64,000 nucleotides of DNA. Source: Glandiceps talaboti (lineage: Eukaryota > Hemichordata > Enteropneusta > Spengelidae). The notes under the pieces are model-generated. The model made no database searches, was not told the DNA's origin, and saw only the letters and a program-made list of their open reading frames with translations. Location of the stretch: assembly GCF_964340395.1 (NCBI RefSeq), contig NC_135552.1, forward strand, positions 12,773,194 to 12,837,193, written 5' to 3'. Positions 5,323 through 63,800 of the stretch are shown here, one piece after another. Numbering within the stretch: position 1 is the stretch's first letter; every line of letters begins with the position of its first letter. A program made the position numbers and the translations under genes.

Positions 5323-5324
5323 GT

Positions 5325-22166: not shown

Positions 22167-22216
<50 letters not shown>

Positions 22217-34833: not shown

Positions 34834-34834
34834 C

Positions 34835-41593: not shown

Positions 41594-44500
41594 AATCATC
41601 AATTGTAATGCTCACATAGTATACTACAATGGAACTTAGAGACCTGTTTATACAATTTATAAGATATTTTGTACAATTGATATTACCTATAATTTCAAGC
41701 TCATGTGTAATCAAGATCTGATGATTTACATGAACAGAAAATTTTATGAAATTTACCCTTGTAACACTAGTCTAGAAATGCTGCCAATCAGAACATTGTT
41801 GTGATGTGGACTTTGAAGGTGCAGAGAAGTGGTCCCCTCATTCTATCAAACTGACTTGTACATTGATACATAAACACAAGCAAGTGTATATCATAAAATG
41901 CTTTTATCATTTTGTTTATGTCTGTGAAAGTTGTCACATGGTATATTTGGCAATATATGACTAACTTACTGTTATCCAGATGTAAACAAATTGATAAGAA
42001 TATGGTATGAACCTTCATAAGAGGCTTCCAATATTATTTCGTATCAATGTATGTCTGTTTGATAGTATAGGAGAAGACTTTGTGGCACCTATAAAGATAG
42101 TTTTAACTGTCCACCACTGTTAAAACGATGTTCTGATCAGCAGCATTTCTAGACAACTGTTGCAAGGGTTGTATATGCAATGTTATTTTTAATAGATGCT
42201 GATCTGAATGAGTGTTACTTATTCCATGGAACACAAGTGGAGAAACCAAGGATTGCCTCGGAAGGTCTTGATATGAGGCTAGGGAAAATTGGATTCTTTG
42301 GTAGAGGGATATATCTAAGGTACGAAATTGTTTTATTTAAATCTGACGTTATTGGCTGACTGTCATCATTATTTGGTAGGGCAAAAAAAAACACAAAAGA
42401 GTTTGTTTCTCATCCTAGGGAAATTTCAAAAATGATGCGGTGACGTTTTTTTTAGAGGGTGTAGAAATTTTGAATGACATCCCTGTCAACAATAATTGTA
42501 TACACTCTTTATATCGTTTCAAACAAATCTTCAAACAACTTCTACTGTCACAGTATAACTGATCAACTGTATATTTGTAATTTTAATCGTGTGTACATAA
42601 TACATTTATATATTTTGAGTCATATTGAGTACCTCGCTGTGAATTTCTATATATAGATATGTGAGGGGACAGGCCCAGACTAGCTGTAAGCTATTTCCTG
42701 ACTCCCCATTTACTTACTGTTACATTTATTTGGGGTAAATAAACTGTTGACTTATACTCAATATTTTTGAACAATCATTACAAACCCATAAATTGTGTAT
42801 TTTTTTATATTTTTGGTTATTCCATCATTTTACAGCGAATAATCATCCTTAAAAACTTATTTCTTCTACTTTTTTTCTCACTCCATACAATTACAGTAAC
42901 AACATTAACAAATCCTTAAATTATTCTGCAAATGCTGATGGCAGTGCACCATCTGAGCTACCATACATCTTGAAATGTCGTGTTTTGTTGGGTGAAGCAA
43001 AGGTAGGTAACTTTGAAATGTCGTGTTTTGTCGGGTGAAGCAAAGATAGGTAACTCTGAAATGTTGTGTTTTGTTGCGTGAAGCAAAGGTAGGTAACTCT
43101 GAAATGTCATGTTTTGATGGGTGAAACAAAGGTCGGAAACTCTGAAATGTTATGCCTTGTTGGGTGAAGCAAAGGTAGGTAACTCTGAAATGTTGTATCT
43201 AAATTGTTTGGTGAGCAAAGGTAGGTAATGCCAAAATGTTATGTTATGTTGGGAGAAGCAACTTCAAGAAAGGCTTTCTTTAATCTTTACACCAAGAAAT
43301 ATCAATTTTGTTGTCAATCTCTTTATTTCATTCCATGAATGTATAATATAGTAGGAGTTTAGTCAGTCTTCTTTGCCTTCATTTCAGATTTATGCAAAGG
43401 GAGAAAAAAATCCAAACTTGAGAAAGGAACCAATGAGGGAAACAGAAAAACCAGGATATTCCAGATATTACGATTCTGTGAAGGTAGGCCACTCTTGCAT
43501 ACCTAACAGGTTGTCATGTGACTGATCATCTTGCAATTGACCAATGAATTAAATCATTGAAAATTCAGAAAAAAAGATACAAAAAATAACAATTTCATTA
43601 CAAGAATGAATGTTTATAGACCCTGGGTTCATAATTATAATAATATAGTAATGAAAATTTTTACTCACAGTCAAACAATTTCTTGGAAGCAAATCCCACA
43701 TTTTCCTCAACGTCTTGTCTTTGTACACAAAGAAAGTAGGTTGGCGTGTTCTCTGGATACATACATGTAAATGTGTATCTCACTCCAGTTGTAGCACTTT
43801 TTCTTTCATCTAGGTGGGACGATTTTTAATTTGAATTACTACAGTAGCATGATTAAGTTTGATGAAATACTGTAAACAAACCTTGAAATTTTTGCTAAAG
43901 ACTTACTTTTGTTTATTTTGCTGGGGAAAAAAAACACACACAAAAAGAAAGTGACTACAATGCCTTCTTGTATATAAACACAGTGTACCAGTCTGGTTAT
44001 TAGTAAAAGTTAGTCTTTGAGAACTAGGTGAAGATTAAAAAATTGCAAAATTTTCTAGTTGCGAAAATATGTAGGTTTACAGTATCTGAGCCACAGTTAC
44101 TCTTATTTTCTTTGGCTGAACAGAGAAAAAAATTGGAGAATAATATCTGATTATCATATCTTACTGTAGGGGAATATAACAGGTGAAGATGAATTTATTG
44201 TGTACAACAACCACAGAGTGATGCCGGAGTACATCATTACATATCGACTCAAATCTGGAGAGCCAGATATGAACGCCTCTCTGAAGCAAAGTTTGAGATT
44301 ACCATCATTGAGGCCAACTCCAGTTGTAAGTAAACATACCAAAAGTCCAACTACTCCAGTCAAAGCAGATAAACCAGATCCAGCAATCAAAAGCAAGGAT
44401 TCTGATACTTCCACACATCCTGATGGTAGGAAGGCTAAGGCTTTGAAATCTATGGATGAGGCAACTAAAGTCACTACAACTCCATGGCCAACCAGTACAG

Positions 44501-47500
44501 TATCAACTTGGGTCGATCAAACTGAAGAAACGTCTAAAGAATTTGAAACTGAAGAAAAGTCTCAAGAATTTGAAAGTAATCTAACAAAGGAGGAATTCTC
44601 CCATGAATTTGACATGAAAGACGATGATGCTTCAGATCTATCTCACGAATTCAAAACTGGTATGACCAAAGAAGAATTCTCCAAAGAATTCGGTGATGAG
44701 GTTGACGTATCCATGTTGGAGGGTGATGAATATGCAAAGGAGTTTGGTGAAGCAGCAGGACATACAAAATCTGGTGTTGTCGGACGACCAGTGTCGTGGC
44801 AACCACAGAATGACGATGATCATGAGCGTAAACTTGAAGAAGTTAGAAGTAGTATGAAAGAAAAGAAACATCGCAGGTTTAAACCCAAAAAAGAGGTAGT
44901 TGAAGAAAAAGGTGATGGTGGTAAAGTGAGGGCCATGGCAAAAGATAAAACGGACACAACAGAACAGGTGTGTTTTTATCTTCATGTACTTAACCCTATA
45001 AAGCCTAATGTAATACCACAGGGGTCAGCGAGCATGTAATTGATTGATTGCTTGATCAATCATGATCAATTTATTGATTGATTTATTATTTGGTTGAATG
45101 ATTGATTGATAATTTTTTGTGGTGCAATATAACTTTTTTGTGTGTGATATTGATCAATTGACTCATTGATTTTTGTGGTGATATAAAACTTTTTTTTCTT
45201 TCCCTGGCTACTTTTCTCTTCAGCTGTATGTAATTCTCTCTTTATTGACTAAATAAAGACACCTTGTCCATTCTTCTCCTCTTATCTAAATCAAAACACC
45301 CCAAATCTTATAATTGGCAAGAGATCACTCACATTAACAGTTTGCTTTATCTCTTATCTTCTGGGAGATTATCACACTCATTTATGCATTAACTAGTATG
45401 AAGGATAGAAGGGACATAACTTTGATGCACTGTAGCTTTAGGATCACCGTAAGTCGACCAGAGACTTAATATATTCATGTAATAATCTCTCAGAAGATTA
45501 GATATAAAGCAAATTTTCGTGGTAACTGATCCATGCTAATAATGAGATTATGGGTGTTTTAATTTAGATAAGAGGAGAAGAATGGACAAGATGTCTTTAT
45601 TTAGTCATTAAAGAGAGAATCATATACAACTGAAGGAGAGCAAAGTAGCCAGGGAAAGAAGAAAAAAGTTCTATATCACCAAAAAAAAAATAGTCAATTG
45701 ATCAATATCACGCACAAAATAAGTTATATTGCATCACAAAAAAAAATGGTCATTCAAGAGATCAATCATTCAACCAAATAATAAATAAATCAATAAATTG
45801 ATAAATCGGTCGATCAATCAATTACATGCTCGCTGGCCCCTATGGTAATACCCTACTTTTAGGGTCTAATTATGTAGAAATCAACAACAGTATGGCAAAA
45901 TTTGTAGTGACCCCCTGATTTTTTTCTCGATTTTAACTGAGAATGTGTTTGAGTTTTCTTGAATACAGTAACAGCAAAAGATTTGTATTTCCAAGGTGTA
46001 TCCACTCTTAATTATGTTTTATTTATCCTATAAACAAAAACAACAACTTAGGGAGATGGAGATGTTGACAGTGACGTGCCAGGAGGAGGAGGCCAGACAG
46101 CAGCTGATCAACAAGCTATACAGATCAGAGAATATCTAAAAAGTCAACACAAAAAACTACAACTACGTAAGGCTAATGAAGAATCTATTAGTAAGGTAAT
46201 TAAATTGAATTATTATAGCCTAAAAATTATCACTCTGAGTAATTTATTCATTCATTACAAATAAAAATATCATAGTCATAGAAAATAAAAGATTTCATTG
46301 TTTGGCCACTAGGGGTGCTGTTCATAGGCTGTTTTAGGGATGGAAGTGATGACCAGAATAGTTGAGTATCGTAGCATAAAGACATCAGACACAAGGAGTT
46401 ACCACTCATTTTCAGTTTATTCCTGATTAACTATTTTCAAGCAACGTACTGTCAGTAACCAAACATGTCTAAACCACTACTCTAAGGATCCTGTGTAATT
46501 CAGCCTTGATTTATGCACAATTTATTGTGTACATATTGCCATACGATTAACGACCATTTTAGCCAACACTTTGCCAAACATGGGTGCCTTCTTTTAGTGC
46601 TATACCCTCACAGCTCTCATTCAATTCCTAAATATTTGGCAAACTCACAAGTAAATTATGACCTGAAGTCTTTGCATATTTAGTTGTTATTCCCATATTC
46701 TTTTCTTCGTTCAGCCAAGGAAAATATGAGCGACCTAAGGGGCCTTTGTCACTACTCATCTAGTGTCTTGTAGTGACAACCGTTAGGTCACAAATATTTT
46801 CTGGCTGAATAAAGAAAAATATTGGAGAATAACAATTATATTGGTGCCAGTAATATCAAAGAAAAATCAGGGAAAGTAATGGCAATTTTGAATGTTTTGA
46901 CTCATATTTAGAACACAGCAGAACCAGTGATGTAGACAAGCGTTGTCATGACATAGAACGACCAGAGTATATATTCCAGATTTTCTGTTCAACTTGGTAC
47001 ATGGATGGTATGATACTTTTTATTTCACCAAATATTTGATACTAACTTTGTGTTTAGGTCGAGAGTTTAATGGTAGCATACCTTGAAACCTATGGATCAC
47101 TAGATGCTGCTTCGATACAACCACCACTTGCACAGATAGCTTCAGGCACAGATGAACCAGCCATAAAGGGAAGAAAACATGGCAAGACATCCACTGAAAT
47201 GGAGGAAGGTGAGAGTGAAACACCTAGCAGTCTTGAAGGTCTTCTTTCTAGATTTTATTGTCTCAGTGGTTTTAGTTATTCACAACAAATAATCACAGAG
47301 TGATCCTTGCTTTTAATATCCATATAGCTCTAACTTGTTGCTACTTTTGTTGGGAATTTTTGCTCGCTGAAAAAAAGTAGTCCTCTTTTTGGGGGTTCAA
47401 CATTCTGTTTAGGCAAAAACATTTATGTGTTTCTGATTAAACAAGGCCTCAGAAAATAGGGTAGATAGGTCGAGATTTTATTTTATATTATTTGTCTTTT

Positions 47501-48431
47501 TAATAGTTTTTATTTTTGAAAAATATTGCTTCAACCCAAAAACAAACAAAATGTCAGTCAGAATACCCCTTCTGTCATAGTTTGATGAAATATGTACAGA
47601 CATTGCTGGAGAAAGAAAACAAACATGCATGAAGGTCAAGAAGACAAAGAATTTCTTATCTTTTAAAAAAAATGTTTTTAGGGTTTGAGGCTTGAACTAT
47701 ATAGTCCAGTTATCGGAAGTACATAGTTTTTTTTTATTTTGCCTTTAACTGAATTAGTTATTGTGAGTTATTGTACTACACTGATTCCAAAATACATTAC
47801 ACATACATGGAACTTATGTACAGTAACTGCATATAGTCTACATGTAGTCTACCTGCTAAACTGTCAGGCCTTTTAATATTACACAACTGAAGGTCATGTT
47901 ACTCTACATGCAGTTGTCCTATTTCAGGATGGTTGGTTTTAGGAATGTTTATAAGCATGTACATGTTTGCATTTACACAGTTACCAAACAGTCCTGACTA
48001 ACAAACAATGTTTTTTGAACCATGTAAGTTTAGAGGGTTACTGATAACTTGTCCTCTGCGTTGTTGTTTTTAAAACAGATACTGACAGTACCGAGAATCC
48101 ACCTGCGGCAGAAGATACAGTTAAGAAAGTTGACCCTCCTCCTCCGAAGCCCTTCACACCCCCAACTCAAATGCCATTCAATCCGTTCAGTCCCCCAACT
48201 CAAAGTCTACCCCAACCATTGATTCCCCCAACTCCAGTGCCATTCACTCTGCCACCGTTACCCCCACTACTGACAAGGAGAGCACTTGAAGATCCAGTAA
48301 AAGAAGTGATGGATAGCATGATAGCTGAATTCATGGAGTGTACAGGTGTAACAGATAGAGATAAAGCTGCCGAGTATATAAAGAAAGGTGGCAATAATGT
48401 CAACGATGCAGCCCTTCTTTTTTTTCAGTGA
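40127..48431 (+). CDS. PARP-family ADP-ribosyltransferase with acidic EF-motif array and C-terminal UBA-like domain, 8 coding exons
   Basis: Exons 40127-40859, 42196-42319, 42897-43002, 43388-43483, 44170-44967, 46052-46195, 47058-47208 and 48079-48431; all phases agree, giving 834 aa. Residues 1-170 are disordered, with repeated SKDSDTT-like patches and a basic stretch [16 protein letters not shown] that could be a nuclear signal. The PARP catalytic fold spans ~185-375: [14 protein letters not shown] (H255), GRGIYLS (Y284), then DEFIVY (E361) and PEYIITYRL. The intact H-Y-E triad leaves open poly- as well as mono-ADP-ribosylation. No WWE, macro, ankyrin or zinc-finger domain is seen. Residues 476-545 hold eight '-EF' motifs. 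After proline-rich sequence ([12 protein letters not shown]) the last ~46 residues resemble a UBA-like fold ([11 protein letters not shown]...AALLFFQ). I do not recognise this domain order among vertebrate PARPs. Confidence 0.92.
41167..41332. repeat. (ATGT)n/(GT)n microsatellite
   Basis: Tetra- and dinucleotide run in a PARP intron; open frames on both strands here are artefacts of the repeat. A short (GATT)n run lies at 41567-41593. Confidence 0.96.
42971..43262 (+). repeat. 43-bp array of duplicated exon end plus 5' splice site
   Basis: The last ~33 nt of PARP exon 3 (TGAAATGTCGTGTTTTGTTG then GGTGAAGCAAAG) plus the start of the intron (GTAGGTAACT) is repeated downstream with starts at 42971, 43014, 43057, 43100, 43143 and 43186, followed by two decayed copies. 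Copies 1, 3, 5 and 6 keep AAAG|GTAGGTAA; copy 2 has AT in place of GT and copy 4 has GTCGGAAA. Copy 1 is the real exon end. Confidence 0.95.
44103..44145. mobile_element. Partial copy of MITE family D
   Basis: TTTGGCTGAACAGAGAAAAA and TTGGAGAATAATA match the right arm of the foldback element at 46684-46835. It sits about 25 bp before the acceptor of PARP exon 5, so it may supply part of the branch-point and pyrimidine region. Confidence 0.6.
44994..45864. mobile_element. 871-bp near-perfect palindrome, piggyBac-like MITE
   Basis: Two arms of about 400 bp run inward from CCCTATAAAG at the left and CTTTTAGGG at the right. Examples of matching arm words: GCGAGCATGTAATTGATT, ATTATTTGGTTGAATGATTG and CATTCTTCTCCTCTTATCTAAAT. 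The left flank is TTAA, the right TCTA; CCCT/AGGG ends at TTAA suggest a piggyBac-type element with one decayed target copy. No transposase frame. It begins 27 bp after the 5' splice site of PARP exon 5. Confidence 0.85.
46684..46835. mobile_element. MITE family D foldback element
   Basis: The left end TTGTTATTCCCATATTC is mirrored by ATATTGGAGAATAACAA; arms continue through TTCAGCCA / TGGCTGAA and GACCTAA / TTAGGTC. About 150 bp, non-coding, in a PARP intron. Confidence 0.75.
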
Positions 48432-49340
48432 TTTCTCCTCGAGTCAGTATTCCATTTCAGAATGTGAAATGCAAATGGTATTCCACAAAAATAACTCGCT
48501 ACTTTTGAGTGTTCAGTCCATTGTGAATTTTATCAGACCAAATATTGGTTTGTACTGCAGAAGTGCCATACAAGTGTTTTTACTTTTAAAGGATGGTCAG
48601 TCGGTAAAATCTACCCTATAAGTTTCCTTGTCATTTTACCAGTATTCCCTACCAGTGTTTTTGCTGAGGGTTGTAAGTAGGTGAAACCTATCTGAGTTCC
48701 CCAGTCACTTCACCAGGGATCCCTACCTGTCCAGTGTTTTTATTAATGGCAGTACTAGGTAAAATCTATCCCCAAGTTCCCCAGTCATGTTACCATGGTT
48801 CCCTATCAGTGTAAATTTGCAATGGGTGGTTGGTAGGTAAAACCCGAATTCCCAAGTTATTTTACCAGGGTTCCACCCAGTGTATTTGCTAAGTGTGGTA
48901 AATAGGTAAAACCTACCGAAGTTTTCAAGTCATTTACTAGGTTCCCTTCCAAAGTTTTGCTAAGAATGGGAAGTAATTAAAGAGTATCTGAGTCACCAGA
49001 CACTTTATCATATTCCCTACTCATGTTTTTGCTAAGTATAGTAAGTAGATAAAATCTACCCGAGTTCCCCAGACACTTTACCAGAGTTCCCTACCAGTGT
49101 TGTTGTTAAGGGAGATAAAAAGGTAAAATCTACCCGAGCTCCCCAGTCATTTTACCAGGGTTCCATACTAGTGTTTTTGCAATAGGTGGTAAGTAGGTAT
49201 AACCTATCTTAATACATGTAGTTCCCAGTCACTTCACTGGGTTTTCCAAACAAAACCACAGTATAGTGTATGGGCGTCCATTCCAATTTTAACTAATTTC
49301 CACCTCTTTGTTACCATGGTTTTGTTACCTTGGTTCCCCA
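48432..49340 (+). repeat. PARP 3' flank with degenerate ~80-85-bp minisatellite
   Basis: From about 48590 to 49245 roughly eight diverged units repeat the pattern GGTAAGTAGGTAAAACCTAC...GTTCCCCAGTCATTTTACC...AGGGTTCCCTACCAGTG...TTTTTGCTAAGG. Reverse-complemented, the words CCTTAGCAAAAACACTG match the edge unit of the 47-bp TLK array, so the two arrays look related. It probably lies in or just after the PARP 3' UTR. Confidence 0.75.
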
Positions 49341-50514
49341 ACCTTAGTAAAAACGCTTGCATACTCTTTATGGTGTGTGTTACATAAGTCAAGTTATGTG
49401 TCACCTGTCGCCAATCTCGCATTCTGATTGGTCAAGTTTGATTGTAAGTTTGATAACTTATATAAACATTAAACTACTACACATAATCTTGACATAGTAT
49501 GGAATCATGCAACTTTTAGTATGATACACATTTGAGAATAATAGTTTAGAAATTAAGATGCTGCATTATAGGAAAAATCGATTTATGATGTGGTTATTGC
49601 TAATATAGTACTTACTACTTGGTCGTCATCTGACATCAAATACAGGGCAGTCAATGGACATATTGATGAATATTAATAAAAATTCCAATTTTTCTGAAAA
49701 TGGGAAAACTATGCTGAGCATTGATGTTATGAATTATTTACCTGTGGGTGTTTATCAAATTTGACAAAAGTAACATAGTAACATCAAATTCGACTAAAAC
49801 AAGGTAAAATCTATATTATCAGTCATGCATAAATTTCTATTCCGTGAGAAGTTAGTTTTTAGTAGAAGTTTAGTAACAATTTACTTCAAACCACTTTGTT
49901 TTGGAGGTTTGTTTGGTAAATGTTGTTCAGGCTCTCTAAGAGCAGTTTGCAGTAATGGTGTTAGATTGTTTGCTAAAACTATAACCATGCAGCTGAATTA
50001 CATGATAGCGTTTTACTAATTGTCAGACTGTATGTCTTTAAATATTCCAAAAAGGAGTTTTTTTTCAAATTGAATTTTCTTGCTTTAGTGAGCATTATTA
50101 TAACACTATTGTGAAAAAAACCATTATAGATTGTCAAAATGTTACCATGGCAACATACCTCTTCACTGCTATTAAGTTGTGAAATGGCCAACATGCAAAT
50201 ATTGGTCTGTTTGAATACATCACCATGTCTTAATTTCTCAGAAAACTGTCACTGACAAAGTGGTGTGTTTACTAATGTTGTAATTCATATTTCTGAAAAG
50301 AACATAACATATGTACTAATGCAGAATAAGAGGTGAGAATTGTGAAACACAACTCGAAAAACAACAAATTAAGGTGCTTTATGTGATCTGTAAATGTCAC
50401 TAGTATACTATGTACTTGAATGCATATATTCAATAAAATCAAAAGTATTTCAAAAGTTGTTTGAAGGTTAATTTTATGCTAGAACTGTGTGAGTATGTGC
50501 AACATTGTATGTGC

Positions 50515-50791
50515 ATGTATGTACGTACGTACGTGTATGTATGTATGTATGTGTGTGCTTATGTATGCACGTACATTCGTATGTACGTACGTACGTACGT
50601 ACGTACGTATGTAATTCTGTACGTACGTACATACATACGTACGTAATTGTGTATGAATGTAGGATTACTATGAATGTATGTATGTATGTATGTATGTATG
50701 TATAATATTAACAGCTATTTATACGGACTGATTTATTAGTTCCATATGCATTTCTATGTATGTATGTATGTATGTACGTACGTACGTACGT
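50515..50791. repeat. (GTAC)n/(GTAT)n microsatellites
   Basis: Three tetranucleotide tracts, including self-complementary GTAC runs at 50583-50608 and 50777-50791, separated by short unique sequence. Confidence 0.95.
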
Positions 50792-51921
50792 TATGTTTTG
50801 AAGTGGAATCTCGTATACTCATGATTGTCCAGAATTTACTGATTGTTTCTATCTTGTATTTTGTCAGATTTTGTGACAACACTGCAAACAGACGCACCAT
50901 CAAGTATACCTCACTTCAAATGTTCTTATGTATATTCATAAAAGTAACAAGACTCCACACACTTAATTATTCAAGGATTTACATTGAATTTATTCAAATA
51001 ATCAGCTGCAACAATGATCATGATGTAAGTGGCTTTCTGTATTTACACTGTAGCCACACCCTATACATTTTAAGTTGTCTGCCTCGATTCACTTGTAATC
51101 TCCTGTCTACAGAATTCTGTTCTTGTACCAACCCAGCTGATGTGAACATTTCATCCAGTTCATCTGTAAGGAACAATAAAAAAAAGAGTACATTATTGTA
51201 AAGATGCTAAGTGGTTTTACGTAGATGCTGATGATAGTCTAGTTCCTACACGGACGTCGGTATCGTTAAGATTTACACCTCCACTCACTTTTGTTAGAGA
51301 CCACGTTGGCATCCGGACTACTGATGATAGCGTTTTTTCATTAATCCACTTTTCCCATGCAAGTACTTAGTTTTCAACACCCAATCACAAAATAAAAGAA
51401 CCATGCCAGGTGTTATGGGGAGTCTAAAGAGATTTGTTCATGGCAAGTTGATATGTGTAATTTTCTGTTTTTGGCAGATTTATTTTGGTAACTGACATCA
51501 GGTGCAACCAATTGGCTGGAAAAAAAATAAATTCTATCATGATGAACAACAACTATTGTATTGAACAATTTTTACCACGTATATCATACTATGAAGACAT
51601 TTTTTTGAAGCAATGAGCTAATAGTTTGTGAAATGAAACATGCCAATGCCCCCCTCCCCCCATCAATTGAATGGTTTTCAAATTCAGTGATCAGTGGAAT
51701 TTCCAAACCAACCTACACCTCTCTATGCAAAAAAAAATCCATTGTCAATTTCTTGCAATCACGTCATAGAAATTTACAAAATTAATCTCACATGTCCACA
51801 TTTTGAACCCGCCATGCTTAAATTGCACTTCAATATATTTATCAGAAAATTCTGTATTCTGTAACCATGTGTTTATTTTATAATATTTCATCCAGTCAGA
51901 TATTCAGCTGTTAATAATGTT

Positions 51922-52087
51922 CTCTGTGTGTTCTATGAGATGATTGGCTGGCCACAGTGTGTTCTATGAGATGATTGGCCGGGCCACAGTGTGTTCTATG
52001 AGATGATTGGCTGGGCCACAATGTGTTCTATGAGATGATTGGCTGGGCCATAGTGTGTTCTATGAGATGATTGGCTGGGCCAAAGTG
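51922..52087. repeat. ~32-bp minisatellite, 5 copies
   Basis: Repeats of GTGTGTTCTATGAGATGATT followed by GGCTGGGCCACA, with single-base variants. Confidence 0.95.
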
Positions 52088-52633
52088 ACTGATTATCATT
52101 TGGTAAATGGAATACAATGTTAATGTCAGATGAAGAAATTATAACAATTCTATCCAATGAAGGAGTGAATTATAACCAGTTTTGCATGTCATGCATGTGG
52201 CGTGCAACAACACTTTGTACCAATCCAAAACATCAATTTGAAACACATCAGGGCACAGGTTTTCTGTAACTTTTTTGAGCAACAGGTGGAATTCTGTCAC
52301 CATGTGAACAGATTAAAAGTTTTCAATGATATTTACCACGTCCATGTGATACTCTACATTTGTGGCAATACCACCAGCTTCCTAAGTTAACAAACTGTAA
52401 ATGTGCATATGATATAGTGTGTAAAATTCAAATTTGCAATAATGTATGTTAAGGCCAACTCTCAAAAAAGATATGAATGTGTGTCAGAGAGGCTGTGCAT
52501 TTCCAAATACAAAATATGATGCAAGTCTTATTCTTGTGATATTTTTGCTATAAATCATTAGAGAATCCTAAATTTCAAGCACCTTTTGAAATACGAAAAA
52601 CTTTTGTCAAGAAATTTATAAATAAATGAAATG

Positions 52634-52880
52634 AAGGTCAACCAGTGTTCACCCCTATTAAAATATTAAAAGGTCCATCACAATGGTTGCACACAGCCAT
52701 TGTTACACTAGTCTCTAAGGTACACCATGATGGGTCAATCCCTTTCATGGGGCAGACAGTGGAGGGTTGAAGACAGGACATATTTTACAGTCTACTGTTA
52801 CTCTAAGTCAGACAATAAAATGTAAGAATACACAATGATGTCATCATTTCTCATAAGGGAGTTGGTGAAAAAACTGAAAA
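52634..52880 (+). repeat. Duplicated 5' flank of the Toll-like receptor, copy 1
   Basis: This matches 53989-54280 along its length (GGTCAACCAGTGTTCACCCC at its start, CATCATTTCTCATAAGG near its end) and includes a MITE family C copy at 52712-52794. It therefore represents the upstream region of an ancestral TLR gene, here joined to a broken coding region. Confidence 0.88.
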
Positions 52881-52889
52881 AACGGAATG

Positions 52890-53830
52890 GACTGGACATG
52901 TCAAATAATTTTATTGAAGCATATGCTTTCAGCGATGTCTCTCAACTAGAAATTCTGGACCTTTTTATCTACCATTTTAGATTATAATTTAACTCCCTTG
53001 AAAAAATTGATAACACTTGACCTGAGTTTGAATGAAATTGAAATGCTACCATCTTCCTCCTTGAGAGGACTTGTAAATTTGCAAGAGTTATATCTTAATA
53101 TGAATGGGCTACTGAACTACCTCATGGTATATTTAAAGACCTGAAGAAACTGAGAATATTAGATTTGAGTTTGAACTACTTTGTTTGTTTTCCAGGTCAA
53201 TCATTGAGACCGCTGACAAATATTGAAATTATTCATTATTCAGATATGTACTTCATCTTTGAGGGTGATTGTGAGGACATTGATTTGGGAGACTTTCCAA
53301 AACTAGACAATAATATTTGGGGATGTCCAACTACGACAGCTGAGTTTATCAGACAATGATTTGAGATGCCCAGTTAATGGTACAATTAATGCAGTTAGAG
53401 CTACAAGGCTGGACCTGACTGGTAATGCCATCAATGGTGAATGTCTGGAGACGTTACTGTATGATCTTGAACATTCTGACATCAAAATTCTGAAATTGGG
53501 ATACAGAGTGCCAGAATTTAATATTTCAAAGGTTTAAGTACATCAAATTTAGAAGAGCTGTTTATACAAAATCTGTACGTTGAAGAAACTATTAAACTCG
53601 TCTGCTGGAGTTTTCCAATGGATGCCATATTTGAAAACTTTGGAATTAGTTGGAAATCATCAATTTCAAATTGCAATACGAATGTTTGATGGCTAATACA
53701 AAACTTGGAAACTTTGAGGCTTCAAGACCATGACTTTTATGACATTCCAAGTGGAGTTTTTAATGATTTGACATCTCTGACAACATTGCAAATACAGAAA
53801 AATGCCTTTAATGGATTTTGCACAATGCAA
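52890..53830 (+). pseudogene. Toll-like receptor pseudogene (leucine-rich repeat fragment)
   Basis: High nucleotide similarity to the intact receptor downstream, corresponding to its residues ~115-448, with many small deletions and frameshifts. One early gap removes the TCAGAGAACG region, and another joins FPKL to NNIWG. Signal peptide, LRRNT, second half of the LRRs, transmembrane segment and TIR are all absent. The longest surviving frame (53165-53359) encodes a 64-residue LRR piece with YFVCFPGQSLRPLTNIEI. It lies in tandem, same orientation, just upstream of the intact gene. Non-functional. Confidence 0.93.
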
Positions 53831-53988
53831 GAATTGTTTTTCAGAGTAAAATAATTATTTACGGTTTTTATAATATCTATTGGGTGAAGAGCACACACTT
53901 ATATTTGCATTTGATAAAAGTTTCACAGTACAACAAACACAAAGGGTGTTGTACAACAGCTTCAGGTAAATTATACTGGGAGCCTGGG

Positions 53989-54280
53989 AGGTCAACCAGT
54001 GTTCACCCCTGTTAAAATATCAAAAGGTCCACTAAAGTGGTTTCATACAGCCATTGTTACACTAGTCTTTAAGGTACACCATGACAGGTCAATCCCTTAA
54101 ATAGAGCAGGCCAGAGAGGGTGGAGCGTCAACTCCTTTCATAGAGCAGGCTGGTGAGGGTTGAGTGACAGGACATACAGTATCTTACAGTCTACTGTTAC
54201 TCTATTAAAGCAGACAATAAAATGTAAGAATACACAATGATGTCATCATTTCTCATAAGGAAGTTGGTGGAAAAACCCAG
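53989..54280 (+). promoter_or_regulatory. Duplicated 5' flank of the Toll-like receptor, copy 2 (candidate promoter region)
   Basis: Ends about 115 bp before the receptor ATG. It contains a MITE family C copy at 54063-54193 and a conserved block with the near-palindrome ATGATGTCATCAT at 54237-54249, also present at 52835-52847, which resembles a CRE/ATF-type site (TGATGTCA). Conservation between copies may reflect recent duplication rather than selection. Confidence 0.4.
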
Positions 54281-54394
54281 GCAGGTTCTGTTCAGTTTAC
54301 TGCAGGATTTGTCCAGTTATACAGCTGTGGAATATTACACCAGGTACAATTACACAATCTGAGAGATTTCTTCTTATACAGCTGATATTGTCGT

Positions 54395-57364
54395 TTGATG
54401 CTAAACAACCAACTTGACAAGATGTCGATGACATACTATACAGTTCTCCAGCTGGGAATCTTACTTCTGATTGTTGATATTCCTGTGGTCATCTCAGATG
54501 CAATATGTAAGGTGTGCAACCAGTCTTATGTTGACTGCAGTGAGAGAGGATTGGATAGAATCCCTGGGAATTTACCATCCTTTGCTACGGATCTTGATCT
54601 GTATAGTAACAAGATCACATCTTTACCACCAGGCAGTTTGGCAAATCTAAAACAACTGGAGTATCTTGTACTTCAAAGCAATGATATAGAAACTCTCAAT
54701 TCTAAGTCTCTACAAGGACTTCATCAACTGAAAGTACTGGACATGTCAAATAATTTTATTTCTTATATCGAGGTATATGCTTTCAGCGATGTCTCTCAAC
54801 TAGAAATTCTGGACCTGTCAGAGAACGTTTTATTTACCATTTTAGATTATAATTTCACTCCCCTGACAAAATTGATAACACTTGACCTGAGCTTTAATGA
54901 AATTGAAATGCTATCATCTTTCTCCTTGAAAGGACTTGTAAATTTGCAAGAGTTACATCTTAATAGTAACAAGCTAGTTGAACTACCTAATGATATGTTC
55001 ATAGACCTGAAGAAATTGAGAAAATTAGATTTGAGTTGGAACAACTTTGTCTGTTTTCCGAGTCAATCATTGAGTCCTTTGACAAATATTGAAATTATTA
55101 ATTTTTCAGATATGTACAACATCTTTGAGAGTGATTGTGGTGACATTGATTTGGGAGACTTTCCAAAACTAGAGGTAATTGCTTTTAACAGAAATAGCAT
55201 CAATGATTCAAATGTACAGAGAATAATATTTGGGGATTTTCCACTGGAGGAGTTTGATTTATCCGACACATATTTGAAATGTCCAATTAATGGTACACTT
55301 AATGCAGTTAGAGCTACAAAGCTGGACCTGACTTATAATTCAATCAATGGTGAATGTCTGGAGAAGTTACTCTATGATCTTGAACATTCTGACATCAAAA
55401 TTCTGAAATTGGGGAACAAATTTGTGCCAGAATTTAATATAACAAATACCACTTTCAAAGGTTTGACAACATCAAAGTTAGAAGAACTATTTATAGGAAG
55501 TACATATGTTGAAACTAACTTGTCTGCTGGAGTTTTCCAATGGATGCCATATCTGAAAACTTTGGAATTAGTTGGAAATCATCAATTTAAACTTGGAACA
55601 CAAATGTTTGATGGCTTACAAAATTTGGACACTTTGAGACTACAAGAGAATGACTTTTATGACATTCCAAGTGGAGTTTTTAATGATCTGATATCTCTGA
55701 CAACATTGCAAATACAGAAGAATACATTTAGGAGATCACACACAACAATAGGTGAATTGTTGGAAAATGTACAGAATCTCAACACTTTACAATACTTGTA
55801 TCTGGATAACAACAACTTAAAAGGTGAAATTCCTTCCAATGCTTTTATACACATGACTTCTCTGATAGAGTTGGATATGTCCCATAACAAGATAACTTCC
55901 ATTCATTCTGGGGCTTTCTCTTCATTGACTAAACTAAAAATATTAGATTTGTCTCATAACACTCTTGATATCCTGAATTACGGTTTATTCTCTCAAATGA
56001 TTTCATTGGAGTCACTAAATGTTAAAAATAGTGGTGAGGACATTGCATATCATTATATTAGTCGTAAAATTCAATGGAAGAAACTTAAAAATCTTGAGAC
56101 ACTAAGGATGACTATAGGTGATATTTGGGAATTTTATTTAGAAATTCCATCACTGAAACATTTATTTGTATTTAGTTTAGAAGAAGTTGATTCCTGCACT
56201 TCTTTTGTAAATTCTTTTGATAGCATGTCCAATTTGCAAACTCTTACTATTGAGAACAAATGTGTTGATGTCAGTCAAAACGATTTACTTTCTTCTCTAG
56301 AATCATTAACACTCAAAAATGTACGCTTTGAAATTCAATTCGATAGCTATTTTGAAAATGTAGCCAATATTTTTGAGTTTATAAAAATATTCCCAAATGT
56401 AAAAGAATTGTCTCTCACTGGTATGCAAGACCTGACAAATAAAGTCATGGTGGATTTGCTACCAGAAATGTCCCACTTGGAAATTCTGACAATTGTGAAC
56501 ACAAAAATCAGTGAAATTCATACGCAAGCTCTGACAAATTTACATAATTTGACAACCTTTACATTTGAGGATAATCATTTAGACTGCTCAGAATGTAAGA
56601 TGAAGGATTTTGTTGAATGGATGAAAACTGACAGAAAAATTCAGATTCTACCATCCCATATTGAATGTGTAGAGCCGTATAATATGAATGGAAAGTCTGT
56701 GTTAACTTTGACCTTTGGATGGAAATGTAATCTAGCATTTATGATTGCAGTACCTGTTACTTGTATTTTTGTTTTTTCAGCAATTTGTATTGTATGTTGT
56801 GTTTATTTTCGTTGGTATATACGCTATGGTTGTTTCCTCATCAAACTAAAGCGTGGTGGTTATCAACTCCAAGTCAATGATGAGGAGCAGCCATTGAACT
56901 TGAGATATGATGCATTTGTTTGTTACAATGAAAATGACAGAGATTGGATCATGCAGCAATTAGTTCCTCATTTGGAAAATATTGATCCACCTAATTTCAA
57001 ACTCTGTTTACATGAACGTGATTTTATGCCAGGTATTGATATTTTTGAAAACATTCTTGAAAGTATAGAGACTAGTCACAAAACTATGTTGATACTGTCA
57101 CCTGGCTTTGCACAAAGTGAGTGGTGTTATTTTGAGATGAGAATGGCTCAAGATCATTTATTTCGACAGAAGAGAAATCTTCTCCTTCTTGTGTTGTTAC
57201 GTGAAATTCCTGACGATGACATGCCAAGAGTTTTACGAAAGATGTTACTAACCCAGAAATATATCAAATGGACTGAAAATGAAGTTGGTCAGAGACTTTT
57301 CTGGGAGAAATTAAAAGTTGCTTTGAGATCAGAGAACAGAGTTAACAGAGTTGCAAATATTTGA
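54395..57364 (+). CDS. TLR: Toll-like receptor, single exon, 989 aa
   Basis: Type I membrane innate-immune receptor signalling through its cytoplasmic TIR domain to MyD88-type adaptors. A hydrophobic leader (~residues 13-35, LQLGILLLIVDIPVVISDA) follows M1; M10 or M12 are alternative starts. A short LRRNT (CKVCNQSYVDC) leads into about 25 leucine-rich repeats (LxxLxLxxN pattern). A single LRRCT (NHLDCSECKMKDFVEWM...C...C) precedes the transmembrane helix at ~780-805, so it is the single-cysteine-cluster (vertebrate-like) type. TIR spans ~838-980: box 1 YDAFVCY, BB loop ERDFMPG with the conserved proline and glycine (~874-880), SEWCYFEM, and box 3 FWEKL at 969. All motifs are intact. Intronless receptors of this kind are common in expanded invertebrate TLR families; the ligand cannot be predicted. 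Confidence 0.97.
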   Translation: MMLNNQLDKMSMTYYTVLQLGILLLIVDIPVVISDAICKVCNQSYVDCSERGLDRIPGNLPSFATDLDLYSNKITSLPPGSLANLKQLEYLVLQSNDIETLNSKSLQGLHQLKVLDMSNNFISYIEVYAFSDVSQLEILDLSENVLFTILDYNFTPLTKLITLDLSFNEIEMLSSFSLKGLVNLQELHLNSNKLVELPNDMFIDLKKLRKLDLSWNNFVCFPSQSLSPLTNIEIINFSDMYNIFESDCGDIDLGDFPKLEVIAFNRNSINDSNVQRIIFGDFPLEEFDLSDTYLKCPINGTLNAVRATKLDLTYNSINGECLEKLLYDLEHSDIKILKLGNKFVPEFNITNTTFKGLTTSKLEELFIGSTYVETNLSAGVFQWMPYLKTLELVGNHQFKLGTQMFDGLQNLDTLRLQENDFYDIPSGVFNDLISLTTLQIQKNTFRRSHTTIGELLENVQNLNTLQYLYLDNNNLKGEIPSNAFIHMTSLIELDMSHNKITSIHSGAFSSLTKLKILDLSHNTLDILNYGLFSQMISLESLNVKNSGEDIAYHYISRKIQWKKLKNLETLRMTIGDIWEFYLEIPSLKHLFVFSLEEVDSCTSFVNSFDSMSNLQTLTIENKCVDVSQNDLLSSLESLTLKNVRFEIQFDSYFENVANIFEFIKIFPNVKELSLTGMQDLTNKVMVDLLPEMSHLEILTIVNTKISEIHTQALTNLHNLTTFTFEDNHLDCSECKMKDFVEWMKTDRKIQILPSHIECVEPYNMNGKSVLTLTFGWKCNLAFMIAVPVTCIFVFSAICIVCCVYFRWYIRYGCFLIKLKRGGYQLQVNDEEQPLNLRYDAFVCYNENDRDWIMQQLVPHLENIDPPNFKLCLHERDFMPGIDIFENILESIETSHKTMLILSPGFAQSEWCYFEMRMAQDHLFRQKRNLLLLVLLREIPDDDMPRVLRKMLLTQKYIKWTENEVGQRLFWEKLKVALRSENRVNRVANI

Positions 57365-57489
57365 AATTTACAAAGTCTTCATGCCCTTTGGTGCTATTTT
57401 ATCATAAAGGGGATGACTTAGGCAGAATTTGCATATGAAATCATACACAAAATGTTAAAGCTATTTCAAGAAATTAAAAACAATTAGTA

Positions 57490-57829
57490 ATCAGTTGAAT
57501 TCATATCATCAACTATTAGTATTAATATGTATTGTAAGAACTTTTATTTGATGTGTTTAATTTTGAGTTGCATATCATTTACTGTAAGTATTAACATGTA
57601 TTGTAAGAACTTTTATCTGATGTCTATAACTTTGAGGTGCATATCATTTACTGTAAGTGTTAACACGTATTGTAAGAATTTTTATCTGATGTCTATAGCT
57701 TTGAGGTGCATATCATTTACTGTAAGTGTTAACACGTATTGTAAGAATTTTTATCTGATGTCTATAATTTTGAGGTGTATTTCATTAACTATTAATATTA
57801 ACATGCATTGTAAGAATTTTTATCTGATG
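57490..57829. repeat. 69-bp satellite, left block
   Basis: Units such as ATGTATTGTAAGAACTTTTA followed by TCTGATG...TTTGAGGTGCATATC (starts at 57527 and 57596). It begins about 125 bp after the receptor stop codon and is interrupted at 57829/57830 by a transposon. 69 is a multiple of three, so an open frame of repeated 23-residue units appears; I regard it as non-coding. Confidence 0.95.
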
Positions 57830-57972
57830 CAGGGATCACCCTGGCTCCAGAGCTGCATGAGCCAATGTCCCATTTGGAGAAAATGAGTGAGACAATTTGA
57901 AAACTGTGTGGGACGGAAGTAAAAATATGGCAACTGTATGTGCGTCATGTGTATATTATACTGGTATACACT

Positions 57973-58016
<44 letters not shown>

Positions 58017-59025
58017 ATTGTGATCATAAGCCTATGGATTTCATATCAACTTTCATACTAGAATTTGCTACTGTACAAATAAACACAGTACATACACATC
58101 AACATATTAACTTCATGAAACATTTATTTCATAGGAAAATACCACGTCAACGGTCTATAACTCCTATACTTGTCTTGCATTGTACATCATTGTCCTTAAC
58201 TGTAGATTTCTGCGAAGGTAGCAGATCATTTCTCCCTTGTCCTTATCGTGACGCAAAAACGACCCATACATAGCCAGCCAATTATTTTGAAATTTCCGGT
58301 TTGTCTTGCGACCTACACCAGGACATACCCATTCTTCGTCCTCACTAGCGAATGTAGTCGAATCCAGATTAGTTCCCAGCGAAGGAGTAACTTTTGTACA
58401 ATAGTCCAAGATAGAGCATTTGCGTTTCTTGGTCCCACTCGTACCAATCTGATATTTGATAGACTGGTTTTCCTGTATTTACCTTTATTCCATCGTTATT
58501 GCGTCTTTTTCGTGAGTTTTTTTCCGCCGGGCGAATGCCAGTTTTTTTTCCCCACGAACTCACGAAAAAGACGCAATAACGATGGAATAAAGGTAAATAC
58601 AGGAAAACCAGCCTATCTAATATCAGATTTTAATCAGATTGCACTCGTACTGGCACCCGACGTCTTTGAAAGCTCCATTACGTACACATGTACGTGTGAC
58701 TAATCAGTAATGAACATTTACTGTATCAACTCCGTTGATTTGTCGATGAGCGCCTGCCTTCATGTCGGCAACCAATCATAGACACTGTTTGAAAGGGGCA
58801 TGATGCAGATAAACCTTGCCGCCTGAGGGCAGCAACAGACATGCGTAGTATGCGCCTTGTACGTTAGTAGTAAACAAAAGCTTAGATATGATGTCGCGTA
58901 TCTATCACAGTGACGCGCTATTAGTATCGACGGTGCGATTTTGTGTCCCAATTGAGTTTTCTGGACGCGATATTTTTGTTTTTACAGCGCAAATAGCGCG
59001 TGATCGCGGCCCAGAGTGATCCCTG
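57830..59025. mobile_element. hAT-like element inserted in the 69-bp satellite, 1196 bp
   Basis: Ends CAGGGATCACCCTGG and CCAGAGTGATCCCTG are inverted. The six bases CTGATG occur on both sides (57824-57829 and 59026-59031); removing the element and one copy restores a perfect satellite unit. On the minus strand, around 58164-58409, a relic frame with KTNRKFQNNWL...GEMICYLRR resembles the N-terminal zinc-finger region seen in some hAT/ZMYM-type proteins, with one expected cysteine lost. It contains a (CA)n(TA)n tract at 57977-58015. Confidence 0.92.
58449..58628. repeat. Foldback (hairpin) sequence nested in the hAT-like element
   Basis: Arms of about 70 bp: GGTTTTCCTGTATTTACC...CGTTATTGCGTCTTTTTCGT on the left is complemented by ACGAAAAAGACGCAATAACG...GGTAAATACAGGAAAACC on the right, around a ~35-bp spacer. 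Similarity is nearly perfect. Confidence 0.93.
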
Positions 59026-59695
59026 CTGATGTTTTTAATTTTGAGGTGTATTTCATTAAGTATTAATATTAACATGTATTGTAAGAATTTTTATCTGATG
59101 TTTTTAATTTTGAGGTGTATTTCATTAACTATTAATAATTATATTAACATGTATTGTAAGAATTTTTATCTGATGTTTTTAATTTTGAGGTGTATTTCAT
59201 TAACTATTAATATTAACATGCATTGTAAGAATTTTTATCTGATGTTTTTAATTTTGAGGTGTATTTCATTAACTATTAATATTAATATGTATTGTAAGAA
59301 CTTTTATTTGATGTGTTTAATTTTGAGTTGCATATCATTTACTGTAAGTATTAACATGTATTGTAAGAACTTTTATCTGATGTCTATAACTTTGAGGTGC
59401 ATATCATTTACTGTAAGTGTTAACACGTATTGCAAGAATTTTTATCTGATGTATATATAACTTTGAGGTGCATATCATTTACTGTAAGTGTTAACATGTA
59501 TTGTAAGAATTTTTATCTGATGTTTTTAATTTTGAGGTGTATTTCATTAACTATAAGTGTCAACATGTATTGTAAGAAATGTTATCTGATTTGTTTAATT
59601 TTGAGGTGTATTTCATTAACTATAAGTGTCAACATGTATTGTAAGAAATGTTATCTGATTTGTTTAATTTTGAGGTGTATTTCACTGTAAATGAT
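59026..59695. repeat. 69-bp satellite, right block
   Basis: About nine to ten further units continuing the 57490-57829 array after the transposon. Several variants occur (TTTTTAATTTTGAGG, TCTATAACTTTGAGG, ATTTGTTTAATTTTGAGG), plus one unit with a small insertion near 59135. It decays after 59695. Confidence 0.95.
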
Positions 59696-60556
59696 TTTTT
59701 TGGGGAGATAGATTTTTGTAGTTTTGTTTGACATCATACTGTTCATTTTTTCACTGTTTTCAAAATTATAGAACATTTTTCATGAAATTTGAGGTGTATT
59801 TCTTTGTAATGGAATTATTATCAACACATTTTATGGTTTTTGCCTGACTTGATATCATTGACTATTTTTTTACAAGTATACAAACATTTGTGTGTATTCA
59901 TGTGAACATTATGCATACAGTAACCAAGGAGAATAATCAGATATGAAATATTTTGGTAATTCAAATATTCAAATAAAAATAACTTTTAATAAACACAAAA
60001 TTTATTGTGTTCTTCTGTGGGTAATTATAACCTGAGTGACTGCAAAAAATCGGATGAATGCAAGAGGCATCTACTATTCATAACTGGGGGAAATAAAAAA
60101 AGTGAATTACAGTTTCCTTATACATGACTGTACATGTTAAACTACACGTATGATGAAAACTGTAGTGGTCACACCACTGCGATCGATGTAATGTAAAAAC
60201 ATGATTGTAAACACATTAAAATACTACCAGAAGACAGCACTAACTCCACAATAGAAGTAAATTTTTATAAACTTATCAACAACGTCTCAGTCGTATATAC
60301 AAAAGTTGTTATCATTGAAGGAGTGAACTTTTTCATTGGAATTTAGTTAGAAGTGCAAAAATGAAGTTCAGCAATCACACTGACACTAAACCCCTCCCCT
60401 AAATGAAGGAAGTTCGCTTGTTGAGCTGGTGTGACATTTGTGTGATTGGCCCTTAGGAGCTTCTTTTCTTTTTTACAGCTGGCTTCAGCATTTGACATTG
60501 TTTCATGAGTTGTAAACCTCCTTGATGAAAAATATTTCAATTATATTCTGAGATAA
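59696..60556. other. No supported gene; expected location of METTL2 3' sequence
   Basis: No recognisable final METTL2 exon. A weak acceptor on the minus strand at about 60017 (ACCCACAG|AAGAACAC) would encode EEHNKFCVY then stop. It matches only the first two residues expected and would truncate the protein, so I do not call it. Confidence 0.4.
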
Positions 60557-60785
60557 GGTAACAATATACCGTCTACGGACATTGCACAATTGCAACATGC
60601 ACTAAACACTGCAGTCAGGATTGTGTCATGCATCAAGAAATCACAGTGCATTACAACTCTCATGGAACTACATGAGTTACTGGTTCACTACAGGATACAG
60701 TTACAGTATGAAATACTCTTAATCACCTATAGATTCCCCTACTTGGTTACTTGTTCAGTGCCTTTGAACATTATTGTGTACTAGA
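60557..60785 (+). mobile_element. LINE fragment (RT thumb region), plus strand
   Basis: An open frame encodes IPSTDIAQLQHALNTAVRIV followed by LMELHELLVHYRIQLQYEI. This matches the pattern LQ-x2-LN-x-A-R...LH-LPV-x2-RI seen just after the catalytic domain of CR1/L2/Jockey-type reverse transcriptases. A stop lies immediately upstream (60554-60556) and nothing else of the element is recognisable. It lies in the METTL2 3' region, opposite strand. Confidence 0.75.
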
Positions 60786-60857
60786 TTCACATGCTTAATA
60801 ATAAATATTTTTGATCAATTGATTGACTATACTCTACTATTATAATGGGCTACCCAC

Positions 60858-63800
60858 CTTGGGTAAAGAAATAAACTCTGGTACCATCTCCTCTTACATA
60901 AAAGTTGTCTGATAAACAAGTTCCTGGGTGAAAAAAGAAAAAAAAATTAGAAATGTATCCAGAAAAGAAATAGTGCTACATTATCTGACCAATTTCAGCC
61001 CTACATTATCTGACCAACTTCAGGCCTACATTATCTGACCAATTAGAGCCCTACATTATCTAACCAATTACAGCCCTACATTATCTAACCAATTACAGCC
61101 CTACATTATCTAACCAATTACAGCCCTACATTATCTGACCTATTTCAGCCCTACATTATCTAATCAATTTCAGCCCTACATTATCTGACCACATAAGGTA
61201 TCAACATGCAAAGGATGAATAATTCTATTTATAGACTGTATGAATACAGATTTTCAATAAGTATGGCTAGGTTTCTTGAAAAATTATTCAACAAAAATGG
61301 TATGGTTGTTCATACCATTTAAACAGATGATTTAAAAAAAATAAAACAGAAAGTCATAACCAGTCCATCAAAGTACAAAGAAAATAAATTAATAAGCATG
61401 AATTTTCAGAATGGTGTTTACCTTTCCTTACACAGTCATTACATTTTGTAATAAATCTTTCACAAACTAAAATAGTATTTAAGTTGAGATGTATATTACA
61501 TAAACTTCAACTTGTGGTTCTGAAAATCGTTACTCACCTTTTTTGAAGCGTAATTGTGCCATGTCATATCTTCCATAATCTCGAAATAACAATAACCCAC
61601 CTGGCTTCAGATGTCTGGAGAGTCTATCGATGGTGAACTGCATCCTGTAATGAGACAAATGAACAGAATCCATGGGAAGGATTGTGTGTTTGTCCCAGCA
61701 CTCCTGGGACAAACACACAAACAAATAAGATCCATGAGGACAGAGTGATGAGAACAAACAAACAGACAGACAGACAAGCAAATTGAATTAATCAGGACAG
61801 AGTAATGAAACAAACAAACAAACAAACAAACAAATAAATAGGATCCATGAGGACAAAGTGATGAGAACAAACAAACAGACAGACAAACTGAATTAATGAG
61901 GACAGAGTAATGGAACAAACAAACAAACTCACAAAGAATTAAACAATTAAAAGACAAAGCAAAAAATCTATGAATAGCACACAGTAGTTCCAAAGTTAGA
62001 CTGTAAGATAAGACGTGTCGACCCATCCTCACCGGTCAAGTGATTTGTGAGGGCACCCTGTCAAGGCATACCTTACAGACTTTTCCACACAATGAGATGT
62101 GTTTATTGATTTCAAGGTACTAACTTGTCAGGATGTATGGCTGATACATGTAATACAAATATTAACACAGAACTTACTTGCCAGGGTGTATGGCTGATAA
62201 TACAAATATTAACACAGAACTTATTTGCCAGGGTGTATGGATGATAATACAAATATTAGTACAGAACTTTCTTGCCAGGGTGTATGGCTGATAATACAAA
62301 TATTAATACAGAACTTACTTGCCAGGGTGTATGGCTGATAATACAAATATTAGTACAGAACTTACTTGCCAGGGTGTATGGCTGATAATACTGGTACAAA
62401 TATTAACACAGGACTTACTTGTCAGGGTGTATGGCTGATAATACTGGTACAAATATTAACACAGGACTTACTTGTCAGGGTGTATGGCTGATAATACTGG
62501 TACAAATATTAACACAGGACTTACTTGTCAGGGTGTATGGCTGATAATACAAATATTAGCACAATTATATCTAAACTATTCTCTGGAAACGGTAGGTCAG
62601 CAGTATCATCCACAATGTCACATACAAATGCATGGCATCTACTTGTTTTGTAGTCTGCGTGACTCTGTCAGGAGGAAAAAAAAAGGAAAGTTGTTGAGAA
62701 CAGGAAATAATGAGAGCCTGTCCATACACTGAAATCAAACAAAAACTTAACTTTTGATTGGTAGTGCATGACAACTATTGATGTGGAAATACTAGTGACA
62801 TCATGTTTTTTTAAATTCACTTTGAACTAAATATGAATGATCAATGTTGGTGGGGCTTCATGCTGTGCAATTTGTTTACTTTGTGGTATTTGTAGAGTGC
62901 CATCACACATTGGCATATACACTCACACCTGAGAAATGTTTAAAGCCATAGTCCCAGTCTTACCTAAAGCTAGTTACAAGATCCGTTTTATCATCGTGGA
63001 CAGATATGCTCATGTCATTATTGAAACCCACCATACCCACATCTACATTTACTCTAACACCACCCCATCCTGACCATTCTTACTAAATATAAGTTGACAA
63101 TGACAAAGACAAACGAGAAATGTAACCAGATTCACACAGTTATTAAACAGAAGACAACAATATGACACTGACAGAGCCCCACGACACAAGATTGCAAGTG
63201 TGGCGTACTCGGGGTATTTACATGAGTGTTAGCAGTGTTCTCTGCAGCCATACTTTTAAGAGCATAGCTCGTGAAAGGGAAGCAGAAAACATGGCAAGAA
63301 TGAGTGCAAATAGCCCTGAATACCCACACTGGAATTCACATGGTATGTGGTGATGTTATAATCATTACATATGTTTATCTGAAAAAGTATATTTCAATAA
63401 AAATTACAGTCGCTAGCAGTTTTGTGTACGATGAATGATTATGCCCTCATTTGCATATCATTTGCATGCAGGTATGCAACACTGTTTTCAGTGTGGATCT
63501 ACAGTGCCAACACCACTAGTGTGCACACACAACAGGTGCAAGTAATCTCTGGTACATATGTAATAATCAACTTAGTCCCATTTTTAATTTGGACTCAATG
63601 ATAAGATTTAAATTGTATATAGTCCTACAAAAGTATTGAAAGTCATTTTTAATATGACTTTTATGAAAAAGTAATAATTTCTGTTTTCCATGTATATCAA
63701 TATACTTCATGAACTTTGAATTTTGAACTTAAATATTTGATCCAAGAAATTTATCGATAATTATAAAGATAGTTTCATGAAATACAGATACATTTGCTAG

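Follow-up and report, generated by a model that had tools for sequence, protein, structure and literature searches.

Do two genes of one genomic stretch carry the same kind of tandem array at the end of an exon, and does the resemblance point to a mechanism acting at the exon-intron boundary? The question is raised by 64,000 nucleotides of the Glandiceps talaboti genome (contig NC_135552.1, positions 12,773,194 to 12,837,193, forward strand; hereafter the window), in which a PARP-like gene and a METTL2/6-like gene each contain a minisatellite that begins within a coding exon and repeats its 5' splice site (donor) into the intron. An earlier inspection of the letters, referred to here as the sequence-only reading, had proposed that the two arrays are of one type and share a mechanism initiated at the boundary. 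The best explanation, which we consider probable, is that they are minisatellites of the type known as mirages, tolerated since the first donor would still work.

Tandem Repeats Finder (TRF) returned 55 rows for the window, and two of the arrays include the donor of a coding exon. Their features, in window coordinates and with splice junctions marked by a slash, are as follows.

42971-43261, + strand: array 1, a 43-bp unit in 6.7 copies (TRF), made of exon end, donor and ~10 nucleotides of intron
42897-43002, + strand: PARP-like exon (ab initio exon call), whose terminal 32-33 nucleotides are the first repeat copy
43003-43008, + strand: presumed working 5' splice site of array 1, GTAGGT (AAAG/GTAGGT), 10.5 bits by position weight matrix (PWM); the frame joins K/IYAKG
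Starts 43089, 43175 and 43221, + strand: intact GTAGGT decoys of array 1 (donor scan, copies printed)
43388-43483, + strand: following PARP-like exon (ab initio call)
62151-62563, - strand: array 2, a 47/53-bp unit in 8.4 copies (TRF)
62525-62563, - strand: 3' end of the METTL2/6-like exon, the first repeat copy of array 2
62519-62524, - strand: presumed working 5' splice site of array 2, GTAAGT (CAA/GTAAGT), PWM 9.2 bits; gap-free METTL6 alignment across the junction
Starts 62471, 62418, 62365, 62318 and 62177, - strand: intact GTAAGT decoys of array 2 (donor scan, copies printed)
61538-61644, - strand: following METTL2/6-like exon (ab initio call, METTL6 alignment)

Repeat finding and homology, joined by exon calling for array 1, agree that each array opens with the closing part of a coding exon followed by its donor, which confirms that the same array type is present in two genes. 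With units of 43 and 47/53 bp in 6.7 and 8.4 copies, both are minisatellites whose unit spans the exon-intron boundary. The unit of array 1 comprises 33 exon and 10 intron nucleotides, and the 47-nucleotide form of array 2 comprises 35 exon and about 12 intron nucleotides, which corrects the roughly 34 plus 10-13 that had been claimed; the 53-nucleotide form carries a 6-nucleotide insertion. Other details of the sequence-only reading did not stand. The arrays had been said to start exactly at the real donor, whereas they begin inside the exon, 32 (array 1) and 39 (array 2) nucleotides upstream of it; and the donor is not kept in every copy: counting the real donor, array 1 retains 4 intact cores and array 2 retains 6, and the core is lost in the copies at 43046, 62271 and 62224.

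In both genes the first donor is presumably the one used, as judged from frame and homology. In array 1 the first-copy donor coincides with an exon end called ab initio at 43002 (score 18.1). Joining four exons gives a match to the PARP catalytic domain (Pfam, 3.6e-15), and the joined PARP-like exons align with PARP14 at 2.2e-7, the alignment having a gap of 3 residues immediately ahead of the junction. The METTL exon carrying array 2 was not listed by the ab initio exon caller in the window; the joined METTL exons align with human METTL6 without a gap over HPDK/M (3.2e-29). By PWM the later intact decoys equal the first donor in both arrays, and read-through past that donor soon reaches a stop codon in both.

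Other candidates in the window were rejected. An exon called within the array at 48630-49206 lies after a stop codon near 48431 and was judged false, and a 47-bp unit repeated 22 times at 19415-20450 begins about 140 nucleotides past a kinase exon and so is without donor anchoring. An assembly artefact was set aside because the copies differ from one another and the pattern recurs at many loci. An Rfam scan of the window gave no matches.

How widespread such arrays are was examined in the whole assembly (590,416,875 bases, 47 contigs), by searching for a given nine-nucleotide motif (9-mer) occurring three times at a spacing of 12-42 nucleotides. The donor-consensus 9-mer AAGGTAAGT was compared with its reverse and with AGTAAAGGT, a permutation of equal single- and dinucleotide make-up. 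Distinct arrays were counted by eye from C1 to C7:2.914 Mb, the territory covered by the first 100 AAGGTAAGT matches listed, with the reverse-motif blocks at C1:34.81-34.82 Mb taken as one array. Among the matches listed there were 18 distinct arrays of AAGGTAAGT, 4 of its reverse and 2 of AGTAAAGGT. Single occurrences genome-wide numbered 8922, 12217 and 7433 respectively, which gives 0.0020 arrays per genome-wide occurrence for the donor 9-mer vs 0.00033 and 0.00027 for the controls, an excess of 6 to 7.5 fold (one-sided p about 1e-5). Many separate arrays of this kind are present, and their bias towards donor-consensus sequence is unexplained. It may reflect the sequence itself, or transcribed sites that lack annotation, instead of working donors.

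The bias varies with what is counted. Raw triple matches, which a few long arrays can sway, amounted to 549 for 8922 occurrences of AAGGTAAGT, 227 for 12217 of the reverse and 220 for 7433 of AGTAAAGGT; this smaller excess of 3.3 and 2.1 fold counts against donor-directed duplication. For CAGGTAAGT, compared by triple matches alone, 522 were found vs 176 of the reversed motif, with at least 7 arrays among the matches listed, up to C4:2.12 Mb. Two acceptor-like 9-mers formed 4 and 12 arrays genome-wide and, as counted by eye, 1 and 3 within C1 to C7:2.914 Mb. One of them, TTTTCAGAA, had 22 matches and lies below its reverse at 45; the other, TTTTACAGG, had 77 vs 21 reversed, which counts against a donor-specific mechanism, and acceptors are not cleanly excluded because this motif outnumbers its reverse. 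One of the three TTTTACAGG arrays with letters displayed reads TTTTACAGGTAAGT and is a donor too. Single counts in 264 kb, the sole scope for the acceptor 9-mers, were 9 for TTTTCAGAA and 4 for AAGGTAAGT.

The flanks of all 18 AAGGTAAGT arrays were examined by eye, and in 10 of them an open frame with an acceptor terminates in the first copy.

Exon-anchored AAGGTAAGT arrays: L031, L032, L033, L034, L036, L039, L040, L041, L043, L045

Homology supports the exon in four of the ten. The matches are to AZUL (Pfam, 9.4e-11), BAR (2e-6; 28.1 bits, just below the Pfam cut-off of 28.5), mitochondrial tryptophanyl-tRNA synthetase (3.5e-4) and the CH domain of NAV2 (8.2e-6). A plain text count of the fetched stretches gave 3 to 23 intact donor cores per array, the highest number in the fetched part of L078; the stretches L070 and L078 end inside the array, and the count for L071 includes the donor of the next exon. 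Over 12 arrays, the ten anchored and the two of the window, the exon share of the unit averaged 0.62, where a random breakpoint would give 0.46 (exploratory test, p about 0.005), the value of array 2 being too low owing to its 6-nucleotide insertion and that of L040 (45 of 46) probably too high. Short matches, such as TGTG in array 2 (METTL), AAGT in L032 and AAAA in L041, were seen by eye between the exonic and intronic ends of some units. Rough extrapolation from 10 exon-anchored arrays in about a third of the genome, and from AAGGTAAGT at 2/89 called donors, suggests an order of a thousand genome-wide; starting from 2 arrays in 264 kb it suggests more than a thousand, both figures carrying wide error.

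Several observations weigh against reading these arrays as tolerated repeats at working donors. In six of the ten anchored arrays the exon is recognised by an open frame and a plausible acceptor alone, and the exon of L040 is without a PDB match. The unit of L034 shares just 4 nucleotides with the exon, so that it is intron sequence starting at the donor. In the window, use of the first donor is presumed from frame and homology. Eight of the 18 arrays (L029, L030, L035, L037, L038, L042, L044 and L046) are without an evident coding exon upstream; some of these may stand at untranslated exons.

A different test is whether donors lie inside arrays more often than repeat density alone would place them there, as the sequence-only reading had expected; in 264 kb they do not. 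Exons were called by an ab initio, repeat-blind method seeded on three frames of the window, including two other exons of the PARP-like gene, and a looser call list was used since the strict threshold left too few exons; at a score of 18 there were 25 decoy calls vs 89 real ones. In the 264 kb, 5 kb of it N, 3.4% of the bases lie in minisatellites with a period of at least 15. At score 18, 2/89 called donors lay inside arrays, one of them false, and 1/89 acceptors, false for the same reason; at score 16 the numbers were 2 and 2 of 130, and at 20 or more none of the 56 donors lay inside an array. One real called donor of 89, together with the uncalled METTL donor, thus stands against about 3/89 expected from coverage, and plain overlap gives no donor excess because the counts do not exceed the expectation from 3.4% coverage. 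The 264 kb hold 15 arrays with a period of 20-60 and at least 3 copies; one of three donor-like motifs occurs in two of them, those described here, and a reversed motif in none. The consensus MAGGTRAGT alone matches neither window array, and the result of 2/15 is weak because both matches depend on two motifs added after these arrays had been seen.

Isolated copies of AAGGTAAGT provide a further comparison. Twenty sites were sampled and two, L054 and L068, were dropped as lying in repeats. By eye about nine of the remaining 18 look like real donors (L049, L050, L053, L057, L060, L063, L065, L066 and L067), which does not differ from the exon-anchored 10/18 of the arrays (Fisher p 1.0). Nor are the arrays favoured by Pfam, where an E-value below 0.01 was obtained for two of the ten array exons judged anchored vs four of ten single sites hand-picked from the 20. 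The idea of a shared mechanism survives these results in part. The array excess per occurrence and the evident exons at 10/18 arrays support a common tendency in this genome, and initiation at the exon-intron boundary is not borne out.

If the arrays are tolerated minisatellites, their history might run as follows. Replication slippage or microhomology-mediated repair across the exon-intron boundary would first duplicate a short segment made up of the exon end (mostly 12-36 nucleotides), the 5' splice site and some nucleotides of the intron. Further slippage, or unequal exchange, would then expand this segment to a copy number ranging from 3 to more than 20. The exon-proximal donor would still end the exon correctly and all later copies would become intron, which is the reason why such a duplication might be tolerated. 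Alternatively, repeats may arise blindly anywhere in the genome, with selection acting as a sieve that lets those touching an exon survive only with a splice site, a serious candidate to which we give somewhat less than an even chance. It is in agreement with the coverage-level overlap of donors and arrays in 264 kb and with an exon-anchored share no larger than the real-donor share of single 9-mers, but the over-representation of the donor 9-mer against matched 9-mers is left unexplained by it. That excess is among the arguments for another proposal, in which the 5' splice-site sequence would itself, where transcribed, act as a hotspot of duplication through U1-bound nascent RNA, R-loops or transcription-coupled breaks. 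The array counts for AAGGTAAGT against its two controls, the CAGGTAAGT triples, the few acceptor-like arrays in the same territory with TTTTCAGAA below its reverse, and the exon-heavy unit of the 12 arrays (exploratory as it is) are all consistent with it. However, arrays stand at real donors no more often than isolated copies do, the excess shrinks in raw matches, TTTTACAGG exceeds its reverse, the acceptor singles come from 264 kb, and the array counts from the territory of the first 100 matches. On this balance we regard donor-directed duplication as doubtful. Its broadest form, that 5' splice sites are hotspots of tandem-array birth here, possibly via nascent-RNA/U1 or R-loop structures, and that this is a recurrent mutation class common to hemichordates and cephalochordates, represented in this genome by roughly a thousand arrays or more, is offered as a conjecture that we would not expect to hold.

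The METTL gene suggests another history, in which the array marks a stage of intron gain through tandem duplication, the intron itself having been born from a duplicated exon segment. A METTL6-like paralog (L079, C5:25720640-25721540) reads through HPDK/M without an intron and has an apparent intron 10 codons later; tandem duplication is able to create introns, according to the accessible part of PMC4974935, and the same origin is proposed for mirages in that of PMC3087553. Against this, the intron of array 2 runs some 500 nucleotides beyond the array to the acceptor at 61645, so that the array is not the whole intron, and the paralog may have lost an old intron. Such an origin appears improbable. 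Still harder to credit, in our judgement, is a function for the decoy donors, for instance in slowing or regulating splicing: many copies do retain an intact core, as the 23 of L078 illustrate, yet the core has been lost in the three window copies named above, read-through reaches stop codons, and young, homogenised copies would retain the core regardless. The paralog and the METTL exon end (62525-62563 of the window) share 30 identical nucleotides (10 codons), although protein similarity in the two matching exons is 45% and 65%; the identity may be due to gene conversion or chance. The paralog also has a 41-bp tandem repeat of 3.1 copies at 544-669 of L079 (reverse strand), in the intron before the acceptor rather than at a donor.

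Preferring the reading as tolerated minisatellites places the arrays in a class which the sequence-only reading had taken to be without a name. The class is known from amphioxus, where mirages, defined alike in the accessible text of PMC3087553 and PMC3902484, are minisatellite-like tandem duplications of exon-intron boundaries in Adh3, the globin genes, troponin C and PGBD5, and the arrays described here are probably of mirage type. According to the same texts, duplication can affect the 5' as well as the 3' boundary, splicing seems to proceed normally and the mechanism is unclear; unit sizes in Adh3 are 10-72 bp (PMC3087553). The amphioxus examples (Adh3, globins BflGb6 and BflGb9, troponin C, PGBD5) and the present arrays alike are tandem repeats across the boundary with copies of a splice signal and overlapping unit sizes. 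They differ in that the former are reported, in the texts consulted, for cephalochordates and at donors and acceptors, whereas all 12 arrays here are at donors, partly an effect of ascertainment by a donor-motif search. Intron gain by tandem duplication in the potato RNA-dependent RNA polymerase gene, so far as the text of PMC4974935 was accessible, likewise involves boundary sequence with splice signals duplicated in tandem, but a new intron results there, while here an intron holds copies of its own donor. Ordinary intronic minisatellites, or variable number tandem repeats, are common in this genome and resemble the arrays in unit size, copy number and likely growth mechanism; unlike them, 13/15 comparable arrays in 264 kb are without the tested donor-like motifs.

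In the literature surveyed, at the level of titles and the beginnings of abstracts, no report of donor arrays at exon ends outside amphioxus was recognised. The present arrays probably extend these little-studied repeats beyond amphioxus and, within the same literature, provide their first genome-wide measure. If the donor preference holds with annotation, splicing signals would be tied to the origin of minisatellites. The arrays also provide natural material for testing how, among up to 20 or so donors of equal strength, the spliceosome settles on the first.

The host lineage was considered from the mitochondrial genome. COX1 occurs three times on a 51,222-bp contig (C40) at a spacing of 15,435 bp, which is read as a concatemer assembled from a 15,435-bp unit. 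The gene order COX1-Ser-Asp-COX2-Lys differs from that of echinoderms. Lysine codons in 11 frames number 51 AAG and 2 AAA, both AAA in ND5; some of these frames are cut or extended, ATP8 is omitted and the untrimmed ND6 frame holds 2 more AAA. When cytochrome b was masked at its ATA codons, the best match had Ile at 7 of 12 places, Val at 3, Thr at 1, Tyr at 1 and Met at none. In the accessible text of PMC2697986, ATA=Ile is common to echinoderms and hemichordates, and Balanoglossus lacks AAA. ATP6 and COX3 flank cytochrome b, a position that fits hemichordates less simply, as the gene adjoins nd5 in the two hemichordates compared there (PMC2697986, same text). ATA and AAA usage appears to be as in hemichordates; on the evidence of the mitogenome the host is probably an enteropneust hemichordate, and an amphioxus origin is unlikely.

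The window holds some further features. Nested inverted repeats with arms of up to 102 nucleotides (89%) lie at 45010-45851, apparently within an intron of the PARP-like gene, and are possibly a foldback element. Near the METTL2-like gene (60858-62642, - strand), the gene at 15438-34834 (- strand) is presumably a tousled-like kinase; the same neighbourhood occurs in human. Two nearly identical long frames of 440 and 351 amino acids, at 2569-3891 and 5306-6361 (- strand), resemble reverse transcriptase. A long single frame at 54386-57364 matches Toll-like receptors.

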